Positions 1,123 to 23,432 of a stretch of 64,000 nt of DNA are shown here, piece after piece (position 1 is the stretch's first letter; each line of letters begins with the position of its first letter). The DNA is from Rhizophlyctis rosea. Its lineage: Eukaryota; Chytridiomycota; Chytridiomycetes; Rhizophlyctidales; Rhizophlyctidaceae. The position numbers and the translations under genes are program-made. The stretch lies in assembly GCA_027596075.1 (NCBI GenBank), contig JADGJC010000171.1, positions 12,399 to 76,398 on the forward strand, read 5' to 3'. Under the pieces are notes generated by a model that searched no databases, was not told where the DNA came from, and saw only the letters and a list, made by a program, of their open reading frames with translations.

Positions 1123-4100
1123 GATACACTATCTTCACTTCCTTGCATTTTTCACCTTTATTCGATTTCCACTCCTGGAAAATTCAACAATACTGTCAGC
1201 AACAAACGAGATTTGGCGCCAAAGTCAGCCGCCACTTACGAAGTCATACAATGTGCCCTCGCACACTCCCATAACATAAGTACTTAACGTCTTGCTCCTG
1301 GCCCGGGGGTCTGACCTTTGCAAAAGACCAGTCGTTTCGCGGCGTTCGCAGTTGCCCCATGAGTCCGGCGGTTTAGGAAACGTCTCCGGTTGCATATTTA
1401 GTATTGTTGACAGTAGGCTGACGCTTCCAGCTAGGACTATAAGATGACCGTTTCCAACCCCTGGGGTCAACTTATACTTCCTCTGCCGTCTGCGACTGTG
1501 ATCTATCGGTCGAGCCGCAAAGCGTCCCACGACATTAAGAACTCGAAATAAGGGGTCACGGCTGAAGCATCCTCAATTGACAGCGTATCCAATTTGCAAC
1601 AGAGTGAATGAGCGTAATTAGAAAACTTTCAAACCCAAATTGAGCTGACCTATTTTTGTACCGGTGTCTTGAGGGTCGGCCGCTTTGAAGTCATCTAGAA
1701 CGGCGTGGCTTGTAAATGTAAACATTGGACTTGTCCCGGATATTCAGTCGTGATCTTTCACTTTTTACCATCAATCCGAGAGTCTTTCAACGAGGCTTAT
1801 TTTTGTTTGTGAACTCCCTGAACATCAAGCATACTCCGCGATAACCGAAAAGGCCGAACGGCGCCACGGGCCGTGCATCGCCCAGAGCAGCGGGATGTCA
1901 GGGTCAGTCTATCAGTCATTCCATCAAACTTTCGTGGGCCAAGATGGAACCCCCACCCAGTTCCGTGAGACGGTCGGAAGCTGTTAGCCGGCCAAGTATA
2001 AACGATTCCAGAAGAACGAGCAATTTGTACAAGAAACAAGAACATACAACGTCGCCTCAAAAGCTTTCTAAATTTCGAAAAAACACATGTGGTCGAGAAA
2101 CTCTCCAGTTTCTTACAACAACGGGCACGTCCACGCTTTTCTTATCATGAAATAATCAGATCAAGCGGTCGCATTGGCAAAACCAGACTCTTTTCCTTTC
2201 TTTTCAGACCTGAAATTTCCATTTTTTGGCCGACATGTCCGTTACATGCAGGGAGAGCAAAAGGGGTGATCAGCAGAAGCGGTGGTATATACTACTGGAG
2301 CGGGCCGATGGACATGCTTCATACCCATTCATTGCATGGCTGTCGTTTCAATGCGCTTAATGTACGTGCCCATCAATCAAGCTCCACTATGGAAGAAAAT
2401 GTCTAAAGACAATTTTCAAGTATTCTTCCCTTGCATGGTGTCCTACAAAGCCGGTGCCAAGTTCAATTCATCAGTTGTCACATCGATCTTCTTTTGAAAA
2501 GCTGCTGTGAACATTCACGCGGACTATGTAGTCAAGTCCTGTGGATTGCCATAACAGGTACCACCCTGTTTAGCACCAGATAAATACAATCCTCTATCTC
2601 AAAAGTGGAATGGATAGTCGAGGGACGAATCCTTCGCGTTGCTCTATGGCGTTTTCAATTGCTTGCCCCCAGTCTGTTGTCCATAGCCGATCGCCATTTG
2701 GTCGACTTGGCGGGAATTTATGCGTCATTTCTTTTCATTAGAAAGCTCACTCTCAGTCACTTGAGTTTGATTACCACTCTCTGCTCACAAGCATGGTCAT
2801 TGTTTGCGCTCCTCAAAGCAGCTCATGAAATGGAGGTGCCAATCCTTGTATGTTAAATTGTTGAGATGTCTTTTTCCACAGTCTCCGCCTGTGCAAATTG
2901 AGTGAATAATTTCGCATCACGGCATCGTAAGTGACGCAGTGAGCAAGTCATCATGGTGGCATTCCGAACTTCGTTCTGACGCAAGGCGATCTCAAGGTAG
3001 GGCGCCGCGCAAAATGAATGCCGAGTCTGGCTATCCCGTACGCCTTCAGGTTTTCCTTCTTTTTGGCCCCCAGGCGGCCCCACATATTCAGTCTGACCAC
3101 CGATCGACTTTGCCATCGCATCAAGATCAGACATTTCAAGGGGAACCGGTGACACGGCTTTAGATGCTTCGAAAAAGGACAAAAATAGTTTTCCGAATTG
3201 GACGACAAGGGATTGCGACTGGCAGTGGATGAACGCTCACAACAATTCCAACAGGCGAGCAAGTTACATATACTAGAGAAGTGGAACTATTTCATGCGGG
3301 CAAGAGGCCAAAACAAAAAGCTTAGATGATTACACACAAGGCTCTCGATCTCGTTTTTGAAGTCGGTCACTCCATGGCTCTCAAAATGGGCAATTCATGA
3401 CTGTCATCAAGGTAAAGTTTTGCCACATTATCACTCTTTCACAGAGGGTGCCTTTGGGTCACGACTACTTCATAAGGTGCGCAACATGAAGAAGGAAATA
3501 CTGAGACCCAAATGCATGAAAGGAAATGGAGTAATCGCTTCATGCTCACGTCCTCTTGCAAATCCCTTACTCAATTTCCATCTCCATCTTCCACTTCACC
3601 AATGAGACTGAGATGCAGTGTACCCGCACGATCAAGCGATTGACCCAGAATAAGCCACTCATGCGAATACTGGACCGGTCCATTGTCATCGCATTTCAGA
3701 ATGCTTCCATCCGGGTTGGCCCAACATAACGATCAATTGGACAAGCTGAGTCCAGAAAGAAAACCATCGAGATCATTTATGTGAAGAGATGGTTATCCCA
3801 AATCAGACGCTTCCTCACCTGTTCACTTTTTTGCTCTTCACTCTGGTTCTGCCAAGCGTCATACAAAACGTCCCGCTTTCAGCAAGCCACAAATGATGAA
3901 TCAAGCGCACTGTCCGCAAGACGCAAACGCGATGGAAACAAAACAAAAATGAGCCTGACCTGGTGTAAAGGGCACCGATTCACTCACGACGAGACCGTCC
4001 GCACTCATGAGGGGAACTGCCAAAGATGTAGTATCCGGGTGCAATTGGTCTGCTTGTCGATCCGTACCATGCAATTACAGTAATTCCCTCAGATGAGTGA

Positions 4101-14292: not shown

Positions 14293-16547
14293 TTACATAT
14301 TACTTGATTCCAAAGTCGGCACCCTCCTCAACGCCTCGACATAATCCGGCGGCAACAGGTCACCCCCCTTCAACAATCGCTCCTTATACACCCTCGTAGG
14401 CAGCAACCCCTCCCTCACATGCCCATGCCCAGCAATATACATAACCGCCTTCACAGTGTGACACTGATCAAAGCCGTATCCATGCACCCATCTCGGCGCC
14501 GTCATTCCCTCCATCGCCACAGGAACTTGGACAGGTAGAACTTCCCGAGTATAGTGCCCGCCCGCGACGCCTTCATAGCGGTCAAGAAGTTGAATAGCAT
14601 GGTGTGGATGGGCAAGGAGATACAGCACGCCGTAGACCGCGGTGGGACTTCCCGGTTCAGCTGGAACGATATTAGCATACCCCACGCCGGGACTTTTTTG
14701 GGCTAATTTGTTAAACGTCAGACGGAAATTTGGTATCGCAGCCGGAAGGCGTTGCAGGATCTGAATACTTCGGAGGTGCATTTGCTGCTCGTCCATGTTG
14801 GAGCCAAAGGCAAAATAGAACTGGAAGTCGGAGGATTGGACGGGTTGGACAGGTTGTTGGATAGGGGGCGCCATGAGTTCGTAGGGTGGAGGAGCTTCAC
14901 TTGATGGTGGTGCATCAATGTCGAGGAAGGAGGAAACAGGTGCGGAATGACCAGGTTGGAACATCGAATGAGCTCGTGGACGACGCGGCGGAATGGCAAG
15001 GGCGCTGTGATCAGCTGCTGGTCCCGCTACTGGATCTTCTGCATCAGGGGGAACAGCTATGGAGTTGGGGAGTTCGGTAGGAAGATGCGCTGTAGGTGCA
15101 CCAGAATGTTGGGATCCATTGCCCCTAGTTGCCACCCGTACAACCGTCACAATGGTTTTCAACCGTTTGAGCGGCTGCGAGCGAGCATCTGGCGATGCAC
15201 CTGTTGACAAGCTTCCTGAAGATGAGCCTGTTGCTGCAGGACCTGATGGTGAGAGTGACTCGAATTGGCGCGCCATTGCCGATACAGAGGAAGTGGTGGG
15301 TGCGGCAGGGCCGGATTGGGAAGACAACCCGGGGACAGCAGGGGCGGTCATCGGCGGGGTGGGGAGGGGCGGTCGTGCGGTAGGATAGTTGAGTTGTTGG
15401 TTAGGATAGTTGGGTTGTTGGGTAGAATGGTTGGGTTGTTGGGTAGGATAGTTGGGTTGGGTATAATATGTTGGTTGGTTGGGATGCGTCGCTGGTTGTG
15501 GGCTTGGATGCGTTGGTACTTGCGGAGCAGGATGAGGTGAAAGTTGTGAAACAGGATGAACGTGCGGTTGCGGCAAAGGAAAACCAGTCTGAATACCCCC
15601 ATCCTGTTGTTGAAAAGCTCGCAACCTTCCGACATAATATCTCTCCAGATGCGGGTTAAGGACGACCTTCTGAAGCATGTACTCAAGCTTCTGCTCCGGG
15701 TTCCACCCTTTCACCATCGTATTCGACCCCTTCACGTCCAGCACGAGCCCCGCAAAAGTTCGCACAAGCTCCACCCACGACAATATCTTCTCCGAATCAA
15801 ACGTCCCAGAATGCTGCGCAAACTTCAAATGCACTCTCGTCTCCTCCCCGTCTCTATGTGACCCCTTTCCCATTCCGAATTTTTTCTTCAATGCTGTTGC
15901 TTTCCCGGTATCTTCATTCGAATATTCGGCAAGTCCGAGTTTGGCATTGAGGCGTCTACAACCAGCCATTTCGGCGGCCTGCTGCCACGTTTGGGACTGC
16001 TGAAGAATGTCTATCAGACATTGATCGCGCTCGGCAGGATCCTGCGGAAGCCCATCAATGTGACGTATCAGATATTCTCTATTGGAGGACGCGAATCCGC
16101 TGTCGCCCCTCCGACTTCTAGGAACGATGCAGTCAAAGGCCTATGGCAAAACGAATCAGCAAGGCGAAAAAGAAACGTCCCCCCACATCAACAAACCTCT
16201 TCAAAAACCACATATTGAATGATCAACTGTTTAAGCTGTTCCGACGTCGTAGACGGATGCAACACCACCTCCACCGCAAAACGATCTTCCACAGTCGCCA
16301 AAATGTGCCGACTCTGCTCAGACAAATTCAGCTTATAGATTTGAAGGAGGGCTCCGTGTATAGCTTGAATCGCCGCATGGTTATGAAGCAGCGGTGATTG
16401 GAGTTCCAGGCGCACGTGCCATTGGTCTGGGCGAGGTTTCACTGTCCACCCGAGAGCTGAAAGCTTGTCGACGATATTGGAGACGGCGGATGGGATGACG
16501 CAGAACGTGAGCGTTATCAGGATGTGGGTGATTGGAGATGCCGTCAT
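14293..16547 (-). CDS. amidoligase-like pseudo-enzyme fused to gamma-glutamylcyclotransferase
   Basis: Two exons, 16197-16547 and 14293-16140, with a 56-bp intron (GTTTGT..ATAG), give 732 residues. Residues 1-250 align with the putative amidoligase fold (PF12224 type) of its neighbours: YVVFEE-AFDCIVPRSRRGD, then HLKFAQHSGTFDSEKILSWV. The active-site positions are lost: no ExE in strand 1 (HILITLTFCV), no HxH (FAVEVVLHP), and FAQH replaces EFRQH. A Pro/Gln-rich linker with 7-residue repeats follows. Residues 558-732 are a GGCT/AIG2-like domain with YFAFGSNM and the catalytic Glu in DRYEGV (E640). GGCT enzymes release 5-oxoproline from gamma-glutamyl amides. The gene is first in a four-gene amidoligase cluster. 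Confidence 0.85.
15385..15465 (-). repeat. 21-bp tandem repeat in the amidoligase-GGCT linker
   Basis: About three to four imperfect 21-bp units (GGATAGTTGGGTTGTTGGGTA type on +) encode NYPTQQP-like heptads in the disordered linker between the two domains. Confidence 0.75.
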
Positions 16548-16798
16548 GGCTTAGATTTGCGGATCGATTCTGTCACCAGGTCTAAATGATTCGCCATTGT
16601 GGAAAACCAGTCGACCAACCTACCTCGTGCGAAGTAAGAAGTGGATGGAGGTCAAGTCCTCATTCGGCTGTAATGGTCAATTGTGACTGCTCGGACAGCA
16701 CATAAGCAATGTTCGATGTCAATGTAAGTAGTGTATACTGCTTGAGTGTAGGTTCGCCTAAGATAATGATGTCGCAATAGATAGACCGCGAAACAGTG

Positions 16799-17233
16799 CT
16801 AAAGACTCAAGAGTAAACAGACGACGATGGCTGTGAGGGAAACTACGAAAGCAGAAGGCGGCAAATCAAAGATGGGGGATGCAAAATGGCTGGGAGCAGC
16901 GAGTTTTGGATGTGTTGACTTCGGAGGTGAGTGTTTTGTGTGCAGTTGTGTAACTGGGCGCAAGTTGTTGTGTCTGCCGCACAAAGGAGAGCGTTCGCAC
17001 GGGAAGGGGTAGCATACCGGGATTCGGTAATAGGTGTGCTGCATAAGCCCCTTGGCTTGCTTGAGACACCCAAACCCGTCAAACTTTCGGAAGGTCGGGC
17101 TTAGATGGTTGGTGGTAGCACAGGCTGCGGCGGTTGCTGCAGCCCATCCATCTTGTGTTCGAGATGTGCAACCGGTTGCTATTGAGCTGATGTCAGTTGG
17201 GCTGAGGCCTCCATCATGATTCAGGCAGTTCAT
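16799..17233 (-). CDS. possible Cys-containing protein with GPI-type C-terminus
   Basis: Unrecognised, 144 residues in one frame. The first half has regularly spaced Cys and an Ala-rich WAAATAAACATT segment. The C-terminus is SPIF..PPSAFVVSLTAIVVCLLLSL, a hydrophobic tail ending the protein, as in GPI-anchor signals. There is no N-terminal signal peptide, so either an upstream exon is missing or this is not a gene. Splice-like sites and a short open segment on the same strand between 17.27 and 17.62 kb could not be joined into one convincing model. Confidence 0.27.
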   Translation of the reverse strand: MNCLNHDGGLSPTDISSIATGCTSRTQDGWAAATAAACATTNHLSPTFRKFDGFGCLKQAKGLMQHTYYRIPVCYPFPCERSPLCGRHNNLRPVTQLHTKHSPPKSTHPKLAAPSHFASPIFDLPPSAFVVSLTAIVVCLLLSL

Positions 17234-17712
17234 TGGGAAATTGGGAACATTCCATCCTTTTCCTCACCTGCCCGCTATTTCTTTTGAGGTGCAAGCACCC
17301 ATTGTATATTATCAGCCTCCAGCAACCGCGAAGCCCAGACCGGTGCTTCAAAAATCTCTAAGGATCGCAGCAAGGCTGCGTCGACTCCGTCTGGTGCGGA
17401 TCGGGACGGGTGTTGCCCACCCTTCCACAGCAGATGGATATTGCCGCCTATCATCACTTTAGCATTCCGATTCGCTCACTCCTGAAGGAAGTCGTCTGAA
17501 TTTCAACAAGCTGCTTACCGCTTGAGTTTTGATCGACTACCTTGCTAGCGAGTCATCAATTTGGTGCGCAAAATCGGTAAGTTTACGAATGTCTGCTGCA
17601 ATACTTACCATCGCATCAAATGACCAAGGGGGCCCCTCTAGCAAACAGCTATCTCTTATAACTCCTCATTTGTTATTTCGAAGAAATCACATCCTTGTGA
17701 TACCATCTAGCC

Positions 17713-18973
17713 ATGCAGAATCAGTACAATCGTCCTGCGTCCGTCTACGGCACCCCATACGCATATGCCACTTATGCCTACCCATCTCCGCCCATAACGC
17801 CCGTCCAACAGCAACCGCCAGTATACCCAACCTACCCCCGCGCTCCCCCCCAACCACAACCCAACCCACCCCCGCCCGCTTATCGTCCAACGTACATCCC
17901 CTACAACTTCGAAGATATCCCCCAGAACTTCACTTTTGGCGCAGAATTCGAACTCCTCCTCTCAGTACCTGAAGCAAACTCCCCAGACCAAGCTCGCGAA
18001 CTGGTTGCAAAATACCTTACCGCCCAGGGCATCAACATCAACGCTTACTCCTACACCCATGCCACCACCACTGACTGGAAAATTGTGAGCGATGCCTCCG
18101 TCGGCGGAACCGGCGGATGGGGTATGGAAATCGTGTCTCCAGTCCTGTCCGGTCCTACCGGTTTGCACGAAATCTACCGCGTGCTTAGCCAAATCACCGC
18201 CGGCAAATATAAACCCATCAGTAATTCTTCGGCGGGATTTCATGTGCACGTCGGCAAAAAGCACAGTCCCTGGACCAAAGAGGAAATCGCACGAGTATCG
18301 CACGCATTCGTAAAGTACGAGGAGGTTTTCACGTCGCTCGTTCCGCGAAGTCGAAGACCTGGTATGAACAGATATGTTCGGAGCAACAGAAGGAATGATG
18401 TCATGTTGGAATGGGACAATAGAGCTGTATATGATTACTTTTCCTTCCACATCGATAAGACGATGGAGGAGTTGGTCGACACAATGTGTCCGAAAAGGGC
18501 AGACGATCAGCAAGGACGATACTACAATCTCAATTTGCGGCCACTTGCAAGACAGAGTACCATAGGTAAGAGACGCCGTGAACTGCTACTTCTTTCCCGC
18601 AAACCATGGTCCCTTCAATCTCTGACCCATCCACTCCGCACCACCAGAGTTTCGCCTCCACTCATCCACCCACGAATGGCCCAAAGCATGCAACTGGATC
18701 AAGCTCCTTCTCTACTTCTGCTCCCGCACCATCGAACAAAAGGAATTCCCCCAAAACTTTGCGGAAGAACGCAACAGCCTCACCGACGCCGACGGCCGGA
18801 ACTGGTTCAAGGAGGACTTTTTCTTCAGACGGCTCATCATGCACGAGGAATTGCGGCAGTGGGGGTTGGAACGGATAGAGTGGCATATTGGCAATGTGAC
18901 GAGGAGGCATACGCAGATGAATCCGTACACGTTTTGGACGGGGGACATGCCCCAGAATAGGCGGGGTTGGTAG
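17713..18973 (+). CDS. putative amidoligase (PF12224 type), intact active site
   Basis: Two exons, 17713-18565 and 18648-18973, with an 82-bp intron (GTAAGA..CCAG), give 392 residues. After a Pro/Tyr-rich N-terminus (1-70) the amidoligase core carries all expected motifs: FGAEFEL (E78, E80), WGMEIVSPV (about 136-144), AGFHVHVG (H177, H179), LVPRSRR, and EFRLHSST (E285-R287) across the exon junction. The family belongs to the glutamine-synthetase/GCS-like COOH-NH2 ligase superfamily and is predicted to form amide bonds with ATP on a small metabolite or peptide; the substrate is unknown. The C-terminal 70 residues resemble those of the gene at 21.8 kb, marking these two as close paralogues. The gene is divergent from the amidoligase-GGCT fusion. 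Confidence 0.85.
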
Positions 18974-19383
18974 ATTGCGTAGACACGTAGAGCTGTAACA
19001 GACAATGTACGGGTTCTTCGAAAGGCCGGTATCTCTGTAGCATAGCTTTGGTCTTCTACGCTCAACCACGGGCACCTAGATGTACAATATACTTCTGGAA
19101 GAGATGCTCTGCTCTTCTTTAACGAGATGAAAAGCAGATCACTGTGTAGTAATTGTAGAGTTTGATGCCCTCAGTGACAAAGGATTTTGACTAAAATCTT
19201 TGTGTGCGTCCTGTTGTGAAGGACCACTGACATCAGGCGTGGACCCATTACCAGCATATCGTCGTGCCAAATATTCCAAATTACAAACTAAGCAATTACT
19301 ATTAGAATACAATGATTTAAGAAGGGGGAGAAAGAATTATCGTGCCGGTACAAAAGTCTAAGTATAATTTTCCATTCAGGTTA

Positions 19384-20994
19384 TCAAAATAACTGCCGGC
19401 AAAGGTGGCACCGCCGTTCCTTCTGCGTTAGCAAGCAATACAACCCGCACCTGTCACATTGGAGTTAGCGCTGAGACAAAGGTATGGTGAAAATCATGCA
19501 AGATGAACATACGGGAAACACCAAAAGGCCCAACACCATCCCTCCATAGTATAATCAAATTCACCAACGTGACCGCCCGCTGGATTGCGCGGGCACGGTG
19601 GTCCTACCGGTGCGGCAGGGATGACATAGACGATCTTCGGGTCTTGGTAGGGTGGGATATGAGGTTGGGGAATCGAAGGACCTGGCTGAGGTATCGTGGG
19701 ACCCGGCTGAGGTATCGTAGGACTTGGTCCGGGTGGTGTGTTGATTACATTCGGCACATATTTCCCATCATTGGCGGCTGACGTTTTCGGTGCGGTCAAA
19801 GCCGCCTGATGCACAAACCCGACCAAAAAGGTCACCCAAGCTTCTGCCTTCTCCGGGTAATTCGTTCCGTGATGGCCTCTGAACTCGATTGTAGGTTGAT
19901 GGTACAAAGAACGCAAGTTCAACTTGTAATATCTGCCTCCGTCCGGATTCATGGTTGCAATGAGCGTGTCGAAGTTCGCTGCGGAGTTGATTGCGGAACG
20001 GGAGACGTGGTCGTGGGATTGACAGTACGGGTTTTTGTTTCCTTGGCGCGATTCGTGGAAGTAGGCTTCAATCTCTTTACTGCGGTCAAGGTAGGCTAGG
20101 CAGATTCTTCGGACGGTCTCGAGGGAAAAGTCGGTGGGAGCTGGTCGGAGCCCGATGTGAACGTGAAGGCCCGTGGAGAAGTTTACCTATAAGCATTGTG
20201 GGCCAATTGTGAGCAGGCATCATGCGGCAAAGATTGTCCCTCAAAATAACCACCTTCGGATGAAATCCTCTCACAGCGGTCATCACGTCCCGAAGCCCTC
20301 CAAGTGTATCGAGGGTCAAGATGGGGCTAACAATCTCCACAGCCGTCTCATAGTTTGAGCATTGAATGGATTTATCTTCCAGCAATTTCCAGTGAGGTGT
20401 TACATCGTGCGTGACCTCCCTATGATATTGACACAGGATGCCCGCACTCGTCAGCGCCTTCTCCAATTCCTCAATGCGCAATTTCTGGTTGTTCACTGGC
20501 GGGAAGATGAGTTCCAACTCAACGCCGATCGTCAGTGGTGGTTGTGAAGTGAACGAGACCATTCCTTGCCTGTTCCTAAATTGAGTCGGTGGCCGGAATC
20601 AAATTTATCGTGAATAAACTTACGCATATACATCCCCTGCAGAGGTGATCGGCAAATCCCTCTTCTTGCCCCTCCTGGAATCCTGCTTCTTCGGTGGTCG
20701 AAGCTCAATCCGTCTAAGGCCATTCTGCTTCGCTGGGACGTTGAGGTCTTTGAATGTCATCTGACCCAGGTCCGCGACCCATGTGGGATTGATGGGGCAA
20801 AAGTTGACAAACCCCCGGCTATCGCTTCGCCGCAGGGCTTCCAATGCTTCGCTCTGCGCGGGGCTGAAAGAGTATTCCGTCCATGTTGCCTGTGAGCAGA
20901 AAACGATTGAGTCAGAATCATCAATATCTTTCTCGACGTTGTTTGTCTTAAAGCGTACTGGATCAATCCAATTCCAAATCACTGTGCTGGGCAT
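19384..20994 (-). CDS. WWE domain-amidoligase-BRI3-like tail fusion
   Basis: Five exons: 20959-20994, 20624-20889, 20254-20575, 19513-20186 and 19384-19450. All phases match, giving 454 residues. Residues 6-80 form a WWE domain once the first intron is removed: WNWIDP-ATWTEY, then VADLGQM and LRRIELRP; WWE domains bind (iso-)ADP-ribose. Residues 113-345 are an amidoligase core with every motif: IGVELEL (E120, E122), VEIVSP, GLHVHIG (H216, H218) and EFRGHHGT (E309, R311). A Pro-rich stretch with PTIPQPG heptads follows. The C-terminus (about 402-454) has a CP..GG start, a hydrophobic WCWAFWCFPCGLYCLL core and RRCHLC, matching BRI3-type zinc-ribbon/membrane tails. An alternative end without the last exon would stop at 19494. 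Confidence 0.8.
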
Positions 20995-21791
20995 AATGAG
21001 AGTGCCTTATAGAAGTAGCGATGCGCTAGAAATGGATCAAAAAATCTGACGAAGCAAAATATGCATGAGGTGGTTGATGACGAGAGCGATGTTTCATCAA
21101 GGAAGGAGACTTATACCGACAAATGGACTGCAAAGTACAGGACAGGGGAGGGAAGATGAGGAAAGGGGGGTTGTTGGGTGAGCTGCCAGCCCGTGCCGCT
21201 CCTTCGAATCTTCCAACGTTACACATCCTCGAACGGTCCACGGATGCTTAGATGCTCAGCCCTCCTTGAAGGTTGCCAACTTGTCAGTGTTCAAACACTG
21301 TTGCGCCGTTGCACAAAACAACAATGTGAGTCAAGATGGAACTGTTGGTACATTTCCAACACATCAGTTCGCCCCGCAGCCCATCGACCAGCACCCAAGC
21401 TTTGTAAGTTTCCACTATTCCGGGATTCGGGTCCAACCATGTGGATGGGCAACAACTCGTGCTCAGATTGCCCCCTGTGCGCGATTTCTGCTCGGTCACA
21501 AAGGAGCAAAGGAGGCAAGTCCCAGATCCGATAACCCAGCGGTTTTCTCCGTCTTTTCCAACCATCTTCTTCCCCTTCATTTTGACGGCTGTGACTGATC
21601 TGGATTCTGACGTGCCCACTCCAACACTTTAAGCGCATCTTGATGAGTAGATAGGTAACGCAATTCACCTTCCATCATCAGGAGAATTCTAATCGTTGTA
21701 TTTCAGAACCTTCCCCTGGAAAGGTAATTGACGCTCGAGCCAAACAAGAGCGTTCTTTTCCACCTACATCCTCTCTTGAAAATCCTCCAAC

Positions 21792-23432
21792 ATGCTGTCC
21801 GGAACTCCATCCCTATTATACCGCCCCACATTCCAATACGTCTTCGATCTCCCAGCACCAAAAGCATCCGATGCCATCACTCACCTCTCAAAACACCTCG
21901 TCTCATCCGGCATCCCAGTCACAAACGACTCCTCCTCCGCCACCTCTTCCAACAACGGATGGACAGTCCGTCTCTGGGGCCCCACACGCATCCGCGCGGG
22001 CTGGCCTCTCGAAATCGTCGGCCCCTTCATGGAAGCTCACGACGACCCACGCATCAGCAAAATGCTCACCAGCATCGCACGGCTCAACCCCGATTGCCAC
22101 TACACCGCTTCGTTCGTCGTCAACATCGCTAGTCAAAATGGATGGACGGTAGATGGGATCCAAAAGGTTGCGCACAACTTTGTCAAGTTTGAGAGTGTGA
22201 TTGATTGCCTAGTGCCTGAAAGACGGAGGGGCGATAATGGGTACTTCAGGAGCAATCGGGATGCAGTAGGGAGAGGGGAACCGAATATCAAGGTCAAGGA
22301 GCGCATTTTGGCTGCCAAAGATTGGGATTCCTTACGCAACCTGCTGAATCCGTCCACTGCATCGAGAAAGCCTTTCAAGCTATACCTCCCAACCGGGGCG
22401 AGCGGATACATCCAATTCAGTCAACACTCCCCGACATACAACACCCAAAAATCCACAAGCTGGATCCGCCTACTATTGCGATTCGTGACTGTGAGCATCA
22501 TGATGCGGTTCCCGCCTGCGTTCTTACAGGAACGGGAACAGCAGTATGATCCACATACTGGGAGGAATGCTTGGAAGGAGAAGTTTTTCTTCGAGGTGAT
22601 GGGGGACGCGGCTTTGCAGCGTTGGTGCTCGGAAAGGATGGCGGAGTTGACTAAACAGGGTGTCGGTAAAGGAGGTGGCGGGGCGGGTGGATATGTTCCG
22701 TCAAATATCCAACATAACGCGGGATTGCCTCCCTCGTTGCCGCATCAAGTCGGGATTGGTGCTGGTGGTGGTGCCGGCTACAATAGTTCCTACTCGCGAC
22801 CAACGTCAGGATACGGACATCAATCCTTCCACCATCCGCACAGACCGCACAGTATACACACGACTCCTACTCACTCCTATCCCCAATACAACCATCCATC
22901 AACTCATCCTCAACCTTACCACCCGCCACCACCAGTAACACACGCACCACCACCCTACACAACAACACCGATTGGTCCACCACCTCCCTACTTCCCCAGC
23001 ATCCCCCAACACTCGAGCCCCGTCACACCAAATCCACCCTCCACACCCTCCTCCGGCAGCAGTAGCGGAAGCAGCGGCACAAATCCCTTATCCTCTCTCT
23101 TCTCCGGCGGCAACAACGGCAACAACAACAGCAACAACCTCACATCCACTCTAGTATCCGGCGGCCTCAGACTAGCAATGAACCACCTCCTTCCTCAACT
23201 CACAGGCCAAGGCGGAAACAGCGGTCTGCCCCCCGTCACCTCCGTACTCGACGGCGTATCATCAATGTTCAACGGGGGCTCATCAGGATGTGGGCATGGC
23301 GGTTCGTCTTTGTTCAACGGGGGCGGTGGTGGTGGTTCCTTGTTTGATGGCGGGTCATTATTTGATGGCGGTTTGTTCGATGCGAGCTGTATAAGCATCG
23401 GAGACATAGCGTCAGGGTGTTTCGATTGTTGA
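21792..23432 (+). CDS. degenerate amidoligase paralogue with Pro/Gly-rich tail
   Basis: An intronless 546-residue protein. Residues 1-290 follow the neighbouring amidoligases: FVKFESVIDCLVPERRRGD, then YIQFSQHSPTYNTQKSTSWIRLLLRF, and a C-terminal FLQEREQQ..KFFFEVMGD block like the 17.7-kb gene. Every catalytic position is changed: FQYVFDLP for the ExE strand, ASFVVNIAS for the HxH strand, and QFSQH for EFRQH. It is therefore probably a pseudo-enzyme, perhaps a regulatory or binding partner. From about residue 300 the sequence is Pro/His/Tyr-rich, then Gly/Ser/Asn-rich with SLFDGG repeats and a few Cys at the end. The intact frame argues for selection, not decay. Confidence 0.75.
   Translation: MLSGTPSLLYRPTFQYVFDLPAPKASDAITHLSKHLVSSGIPVTNDSSSATSSNNGWTVRLWGPTRIRAGWPLEIVGPFMEAHDDPRISKMLTSIARLNPDCHYTASFVVNIASQNGWTVDGIQKVAHNFVKFESVIDCLVPERRRGDNGYFRSNRDAVGRGEPNIKVKERILAAKDWDSLRNLLNPSTASRKPFKLYLPTGASGYIQFSQHSPTYNTQKSTSWIRLLLRFVTVSIMMRFPPAFLQEREQQYDPHTGRNAWKEKFFFEVMGDAALQRWCSERMAELTKQGVGKGGGGAGGYVPSNIQHNAGLPPSLPHQVGIGAGGGAGYNSSYSRPTSGYGHQSFHHPHRPHSIHTTPTHSYPQYNHPSTHPQPYHPPPPVTHAPPPYTTTPIGPPPPYFPSIPQHSSPVTPNPPSTPSSGSSSGSSGTNPLSSLFSGGNNGNNNSNNLTSTLVSGGLRLAMNHLLPQLTGQGGNSGLPPVTSVLDGVSSMFNGGSSGCGHGGSSLFNGGGGGGSLFDGGSLFDGGLFDASCISIGDIASGCFDC

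Follow-up and report, generated by a model that had tools for sequence, protein, structure and literature searches.

Four adjacent amidoligase-derived genes in Rhizophlyctis rosea, including an amidoligase with a WWE-like N-terminus and a BRI3-type tail

Gamma-glutamyl cyclotransferases act on small peptides and amines, and we know of no settled substrate for the eukaryotic amidoligases of the Amidoligase_2 family (PF12224). The two enzyme types occur together in some mobile elements. Two Clostridium clostridioforme prophages are listed with both an amidoligase and a gamma-glutamyl cyclotransferase, and a third with an amidoligase and without a cyclotransferase (PMC11318856). Relatives of the amidoligases described below were present in 38 phage records. 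We chose seven of these, one of which was unannotated, leaving six loci for comparison. In four of these six annotated loci, a gamma-glutamyl cyclotransferase gene lies no more than 2.5 kb from the amidoligase; it is annotated as such in Waltz, GR1 and 031MP004 and was recognized by Pfam in Ottawa, which like Waltz is an Arthrobacter phage. No cyclotransferase is annotated in the remaining two, both from Porphyromonas phages, and two plasmid matches carried no annotation. The pairing of amidoligase and cyclotransferase in phages and prophages is not universal.

WWE domains form the second point of comparison. In solved WWE domains, the adenine of the ligand is held by a conserved Gln and stacked upon by an aromatic residue, and the proximal phosphate is bound by a Tyr together with an Arg (PMC11269756). 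In the open-licence literature, no publication was found that joins an amidoligase with a WWE domain or with a YEATS domain, and in PMC7824862 the word amidoligase is present in the reference list only.

Gene A and its amidoligase domain

We analyzed a 64,000-nucleotide stretch of genomic DNA from the soil chytrid R. rosea (Chytridiomycota), hereafter the window. Gene A comprises five minus-strand exons, which once spliced give a stop-free frame of 454 residues. Its parts, in window coordinates, are as follows.

Exon 1, 20959..20994, minus strand: Met start and first WWE-like strand, WNWIDP; the junction is the same in HDV00_002959
Intron 1, 20890..20958, minus strand: 69 nt, GT-AG, frame open; also spliced out in P0001
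Exon 2, 20624..20889, minus strand: remainder of the WWE-like region, then a basic linker
Exon 3, 20254..20575, minus strand: start of the amidoligase, with GVELEL and EIVSP; the NCBI exon begins at 20569, 6 nt later
Exon 4, 19513..20186, minus strand: HVH, RYYKLN and TIEFR, then a proline-rich linker and the first half of the BRI3 tail; the NCBI exon ends at 19608
Exon 5, 19384..19450, minus strand: end of the BRI3 tail, CGLYCLLTQKERRCHLCRQLF, placed on the basis of PF10164 and of an intron site common to the BRI3 gene L004
WWE-like region, 20701..20982, minus strand: residues 5-75 over two exons, a sub-threshold Pfam WWE match
Amidoligase_2 domain (PF12224), 19815..20538, minus strand: residues 114-332 over two exons, a profile match with a glutamine synthetase fold
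BRI3 domain (PF10164), 19396..19652, minus strand: residues 387-451 over two exons, a profile match

The deposited NCBI model (P0001/HDV00_002959, 423 aa), which was built independently of the initial annotation, agrees with ours in introns 1 and 3 and in the donor of intron 2. The initial annotation had proposed that a 69-nt intron be removed, and the open 454-residue frame and the presence of the same intron in the NCBI model bear this out. The acceptor of intron 2 lies 6 nt further downstream in HDV00_002959, which gives YAQGMV against YANRQGMV in the 454-residue model. At the last junction, the deposited model uses donor 19608 and a 157-nt intron (GTAGGA), compared to a 62-nt GTATGT intron in ours; its C-terminus consists of 24 residues from another frame (VRVVLLANAEG...), and the BRI3 tail is missing. 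This end of the deposited model (window 19376-19608) looks misannotated, with the BRI3 frame skipped.

The same region could be read as two transcripts, one for a small WWE-like protein that ends at an in-frame stop after GDVYA and one for an amidoligase that begins at Met 20562. The unspliced frame from Met 20994 does stop directly after VYA, and a Met is located just before the amidoligase; intron 2, however, keeps the frame and has a GTAAGT donor that the NCBI model also uses. We regard two separate transcripts as unlikely and retain the single spliced gene, whose predicted order of WWE-like region, amidoligase and BRI3-type tail is well supported at the level of the sequence. Within it, the evidence is good for the amidoligase and the tail, and the WWE part is a probable assignment that falls short of proof.

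Another contig (L015, G000:C632, positions 3661-3865) repeats 205 bp of gene A, with 204 of the 205 positions identical. This copy spans window 20820-21024 and covers the gene A start, exon 1, intron 1 and the beginning of exon 2, and represents either a recent duplication or an assembly artefact. An Rfam scan of the window gave no match.

The prediction that gene A carries a complete amidoligase active site was confirmed at the level of the sequence. PF12224 matched residues 114-332 with an E-value of 4e-26 (92.8 bits against a cut-off of 22), the ExE, HxH and ExR motifs are all present, and the protein has every one of the 15 positions that are invariant in an alignment of 24 sequences (the NCBI protein of gene A and 23 relatives). 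Six of these 15 positions are still invariant in a wider alignment of 141 sequences. Over residues 111-340 of the AlphaFold2 model, 18 of 23 ten-residue blocks reached a mean pLDDT of at least 90, and the lowest block stood at 72. Six PDB structures matched the gene A model with E ≤ 0.001; each is a glutamine synthetase, and the whole-model TM values were low (0.26-0.29).

Protein searches against 5.8 billion proteins, which depend on shared 5-residue words and may miss distant cases, returned 24 matches for gene A, 133 for its residues 1-335 (120 listed) and 18 for the neighboring gene B. In the domain columns of the matches listed for genes A and B, WWE and BRI3 did not occur a second time; nor did another fungus appear by name, most matches being nameless. 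A domain scan was performed on 141 amidoligase proteins, namely P0001 plus 140 relatives out of 142, with P0007 and P0013 excluded for length. pYEATS domains were detected in ten of them, YEATS domains in seven (the two sets partly overlap) and RanBP zinc ribbons in three; WWE and BRI3 domains were absent from these relatives at E ≤ 0.01. The module-bearing proteins include P0025 and P0053 (YEATS), P0094 and P0129 (YEATS and pYEATS) and P0062 (RanBP zinc ribbon); by eye, P0045 shows a similar Cys pattern. Additionally, P0161 is listed with a PF02816 domain, which we take to be an alpha-kinase.

A quick amidoligase tree (FastTree, 162 sequences, midpoint root, gene D left out) placed genes A, B and C inside one 15-tip clade with a support of 0.887, to which P0025, P0053 and P0062 also belong. 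The tip nearest to gene A is P0137 (0.932). Binding modules recur in front of the amidoligase among these relatives, and the WWE-like module and the BRI3 tail are, within the proteins covered here, new additions to that habit.

The two ends of the gene A protein

For PF10164, whose cut-off is 25.9 bits, the whole gene A protein scored 26.9; of two tail segments, one scored 27.3 and the shorter one 25.3, just under the cut-off. R. rosea also has an ordinary BRI3 gene (L004 on contig C249), which matches PF10164 with 57 bits and to which the gene A tail is 30% identical over 107 columns. The last intron lies between CFP and CG in gene A and between FFP and IG in the C249 gene, and in both it is a phase 2 intron with a GTATGT donor. 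The intron site common to the two speaks for a gene A whose 3' end was taken over from a BRI3 gene, and for an error in the C-terminus of the NCBI model. A phase-matched last exon supplying a BRI3-like tail, as the initial annotation had it, is upheld by the profile score just over the cut-off and by the agreement in intron site and phase with the organism's own BRI3 gene. For the NCBI end to be correct, the BRI3 tail would have to be a chance reading; the deposited model does terminate in its own frame by way of donor 19608, but the over-threshold profile match, the intron position, phase and donor common to a real BRI3 gene and the 30% identity to that gene all argue against this, and we consider it extremely improbable. 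On the sequence evidence, the BRI3 tail of gene A appears to be real.

The same tail had been described as a zinc-ribbon and hydrophobic end. The BRI3 profile matches, but the first knuckle is incomplete (CPRN, with one Cys only, compared to CPQG in the C249 gene), and the hydrophobic peak reaches 1.32 compared to 2.34 in the BRI3 paralogue (17-residue windows, every third position). The incomplete Cys knuckle and the weaker hydrophobic core argue against a simple copy of BRI3 behaviour in gene A.

At the other end of the protein, WWE was the sole Pfam match to the first 75-80 residues, with an E-value of 0.009-0.011 and 16.5-16.8 bits. It aligned residues 5-62 of gene A with profile positions 1-58 of 67. 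The score stays short of the PF02825 cut-off (16.8 against 21.1 bits), and no WWE match was obtained at E ≤ 1 with gene A queries of 454 and 105 aa. The 454-residue model thus exceeds the cut-offs for PF12224 and PF10164, but is unmatched by PF02825 at that threshold. With a profile built from eight WWE domains, the N-terminus scored 8.8 bits, a value exceeded by 5 of 20000 shuffles and by none of 980 window open reading frames of at least 40 residues; with intron 1 retained, the score dropped to 2.6 bits. An alignment with the eight domains showed that gene A keeps the order of the WxW, WxxY, helix and RR motifs. A BLAST comparison with RNF146 put the VADLxxM motif in register, with an E-value (0.45) that is not significant. 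The WWE signature that had been noted directly ahead of the amidoligase is therefore sustained in its motif order, as the only Pfam match and in its dependence on the removal of intron 1, but it lies below the Pfam cut-off.

Other methods gave less. An hhalign comparison of the N-terminus with WWE, using a single query sequence, returned a probability of 7%, a PDB sequence search with the N-terminus had no match at E ≤ 10, and a first WWE profile made of short fragments ranked at least 20 shuffles above gene A. A WWE fold has six strands and one helix; AlphaFold2 produced only a weak strand-strand-helix in residues 1-30, with pLDDT block means of 41-66 and with little structure between it and the amidoligase; the model of the intron-retained N-terminus had a mean pLDDT of 37 and was uninterpretable.

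The N-terminus might accordingly be a short unrelated or disordered leader, which would reduce gene A to an amidoligase with a BRI3 tail. The sub-threshold score, the weak structure model, the low hhalign probability, the shuffles ranked higher by the fragmentary profile and the ligand residues described below, which are not conserved, all favor such a leader. Against it, WWE is the only family found and is matched over most of its profile, few shuffles beat the fuller profile, and the motif order and VADLxxM agree with real WWE domains. On balance we consider a leader fairly unlikely, and the N-terminus of gene A is probably a true WWE fold.

The initial annotation had further ascribed ADP-ribose recognition to this region, which the pocket residues do not support. 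In gene A, the position of the Gln that holds adenine aligns with Phe and that of the phosphate-binding Tyr with Trp; the stacking aromatic residue, a Trp, is the only one clearly kept, and the position of the Arg is uncertain. Because of the changes from Gln to Phe and from Tyr to Trp, ADP-ribose binding is not to be assumed, and as judged from the aligned residues it is doubtful. The ligand itself would be available, since PARP catalytic-domain matches are present in the R. rosea genome (27 at the exon level, 25 of them over the cut-off, on 16 contigs). A genome search also detected one WWE domain over the cut-off (L006, G000:C623; 35.3 bits), which served as a positive control for WWE detection in R. 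rosea. In that gene, the WWE domain is flanked by a finger of the RanBP type and an end that resembles a RING, both identified by eye, an arrangement that recalls RNF146.

Four adjacent amidoligase-derived genes

Gene A has three neighbors that, like itself, derive from amidoligases; of the four adjacent genes, two are intact (A and B) and two dead (C and D). The three neighbors are listed here.

Gene B, 17713..18973, plus strand: exons 17713-18565 and 18648-18973; amidoligase with a proline-rich N-terminus and 15/15 invariant residues
Gene C, 21792..23432, plus strand: dead amidoligase paralogue with 2/15 invariant residues and a Pro/Gly-rich tail, taken as a single open frame
Gene D, 14293..16547, minus strand: exons 16547-16197 and 16140-14293, in our own splice model

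Counted over the 15 invariant residues, genes A and B each retain 15 and genes C and D each retain two. The model of gene B is identical letter for letter to P0145/HDV00_002958, with a PF12224 match at 3.1e-24. Gene C had no PF12224 match at E ≤ 10 and was recognized by the A3 profile with an E-value of 1.2e-24; at 29% identity to gene B over 290 columns, it is a dead paralogue of B. Gene D encodes, in order, a dead amidoligase domain whose active site is lost, a long proline-rich linker and a C-terminal gamma-glutamyl cyclotransferase domain. The amidoligase domain was recovered by the A3 profile at 3.8e-9, with no PF12224 match at E ≤ 1. The cyclotransferase domain matched PF06094 with 39.5 bits (cut-off 22.8) and PF13772 with 32.9 bits (cut-off 27), and its best PDB match is human GGCT. 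Its LDxxEG motif has the Glu of the human enzyme (LDRYEGVAGGHY compared to LDEQEGVKSGMY), which is presumably the catalytic residue. The dead amidoligase-GGCT fusion of gene D, which goes unmentioned in the initial annotation of gene A, says more about function than does the WWE of gene A.

Genes D and B lie head to head, as do genes A and C, so that either pair sets a live gene opposite a dead one, and the two pairs (14293-23432) may reflect the inverted duplication of one pair. When a profile of the 141 proteins, which includes the NCBI protein of gene A, was run against the window open reading frames, only genes A-D matched at E ≤ 1. In the 44-Mb assembly, PF12224 matched A and B only, and a search with protein B found A, B and C and two further places at E-values of 0.06-0.07. 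No further amidoligase copy was found in the assembly by these searches, in which copies as diverged as C or D could be missed: gene D escaped both genome searches and gene C the PF12224 search, so dead copies elsewhere could likewise be overlooked. AIG2_2 matched elsewhere in the genome, with a better score on C76 and below threshold on C24, and the cyclotransferase family is therefore not confined to the cluster.

Two dead members out of four might mean that the array is decaying, with gene A heading toward a pseudogene like C and D. The loss of 13 of the 15 residues in both C and D fits such a course, as does the fragment of gene A on another contig. However, A and B have all invariant residues and open frames, the frames of C and D are long and open as well, and D retains its GGCT domain; we judge decay of this kind to be very unlikely.

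A putative writer and eraser set and its relation to known systems

The predicted domain content of genes A and D, the intact active sites of A and B, the lost ones of C and D and the clustering of the four genes are established by the profile and alignment results. From these we infer what the genes do, on which substrate and at which membrane, and that they pair as writer and eraser; the cluster can be read as a eukaryotic set that writes and erases amide conjugates, possibly gamma-glutamyl ones. The gene A product would be an active carboxylate-amine ligase of the glutamine synthetase fold. Its WWE-like N-terminal domain may pick a partner or target, and its BRI3/LITAF-type tail would anchor the protein at the cytoplasmic face of a membrane, probably an endolysosomal one. 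Genes A and B would act as writers that form an amide bond at the expense of ATP, probably on a glutamate gamma-carboxyl, a target made likely by the cyclotransferase in gene D. The GGCT domain of gene D would be the eraser, freeing the adduct as 5-oxoproline, and its dead amidoligase could pair with the live amidoligases. This explanation as a whole, with A and B as writers, D as eraser and a gene A product that is targeted by its WWE-like domain and held at a membrane, is the best that we can offer and is put forward tentatively, at somewhat less than even confidence.

The same genes could instead serve metabolism, with A and B synthesizing a gamma-glutamyl small molecule for degradation by the GGCT domain of D; no protein would be modified, and the accessory modules would position the enzyme. 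The glutamine synthetase fold and the small peptide and amine substrates of gamma-glutamyl cyclotransferases speak for such a metabolite ligase, whereas modules of the WWE-like and BRI3 kind face proteins or membranes, and binding modules of other kinds (YEATS or pYEATS, RanBP zinc ribbons) are present in some relatives. We hold it to be somewhat unlikely. The writer/eraser reading, taken in its general form, suggests that the cluster is an undescribed reversible modification system. Its most ambitious version would be a eukaryotic reversible protein modification outside the ubiquitin and tubulin-glutamylation families, in which a WWE-guided membrane amidoligase attaches an amine or a peptide to the carboxyls of proteins, the amidoligase-GGCT fusion removes it and the dead paralogues regulate the process; we advance it as a speculation whose chances are low. 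With its live writers, dead partners and fused cyclotransferase, the R. rosea array offers a defined gene set for testing both the reaction and its reversal, and an amidoligase-GGCT fusion in a eukaryote is evidence that the phage pairing is functional.

Compared to known systems, gene A has in common with the Amidoligase_2 family the fold, all 15 invariant residues and, as in several phages, a GGCT gene nearby. R. rosea differs in its eukaryotic four-gene array, the WWE-like N-terminus, the BRI3 tail and the fusion of GGCT to a dead amidoligase. The YEATS- and RanBP-amidoligases P0025, P0053 and P0062 resemble gene A in having a binding module before the amidoligase, whereas the type of module differs. 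With the WWE domains (PF02825) of RNF146, HUWE1, TRIP12 and DTX1, gene A shares the order WxW, WxxY, helix, VADLxxM (in RNF146) and RRI; it differs in its sub-threshold score, in Phe and Trp at the Gln and Tyr sites and in the other kind of ligase attached. Common to BRI3 proteins (PF10164, and LITAF by analogy) and gene A are a profile score over the cut-off and a preceding proline-rich region, and the BRI3 gene of R. rosea also shares the position and phase of the last intron; the gene A tail, in contrast, is appended to an enzyme and has a CPRN knuckle and a weaker hydrophobic core. The FGSN motif and LDxxEG of gene D are as in human GGCT, a gamma-glutamyl cyclotransferase of PF06094/PF13772, whereas the domain of gene D is the C-terminal part of a dead amidoligase. 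Where phage loci encode a cyclotransferase near the amidoligase, gene D joins one to a protein of the amidoligase family itself.
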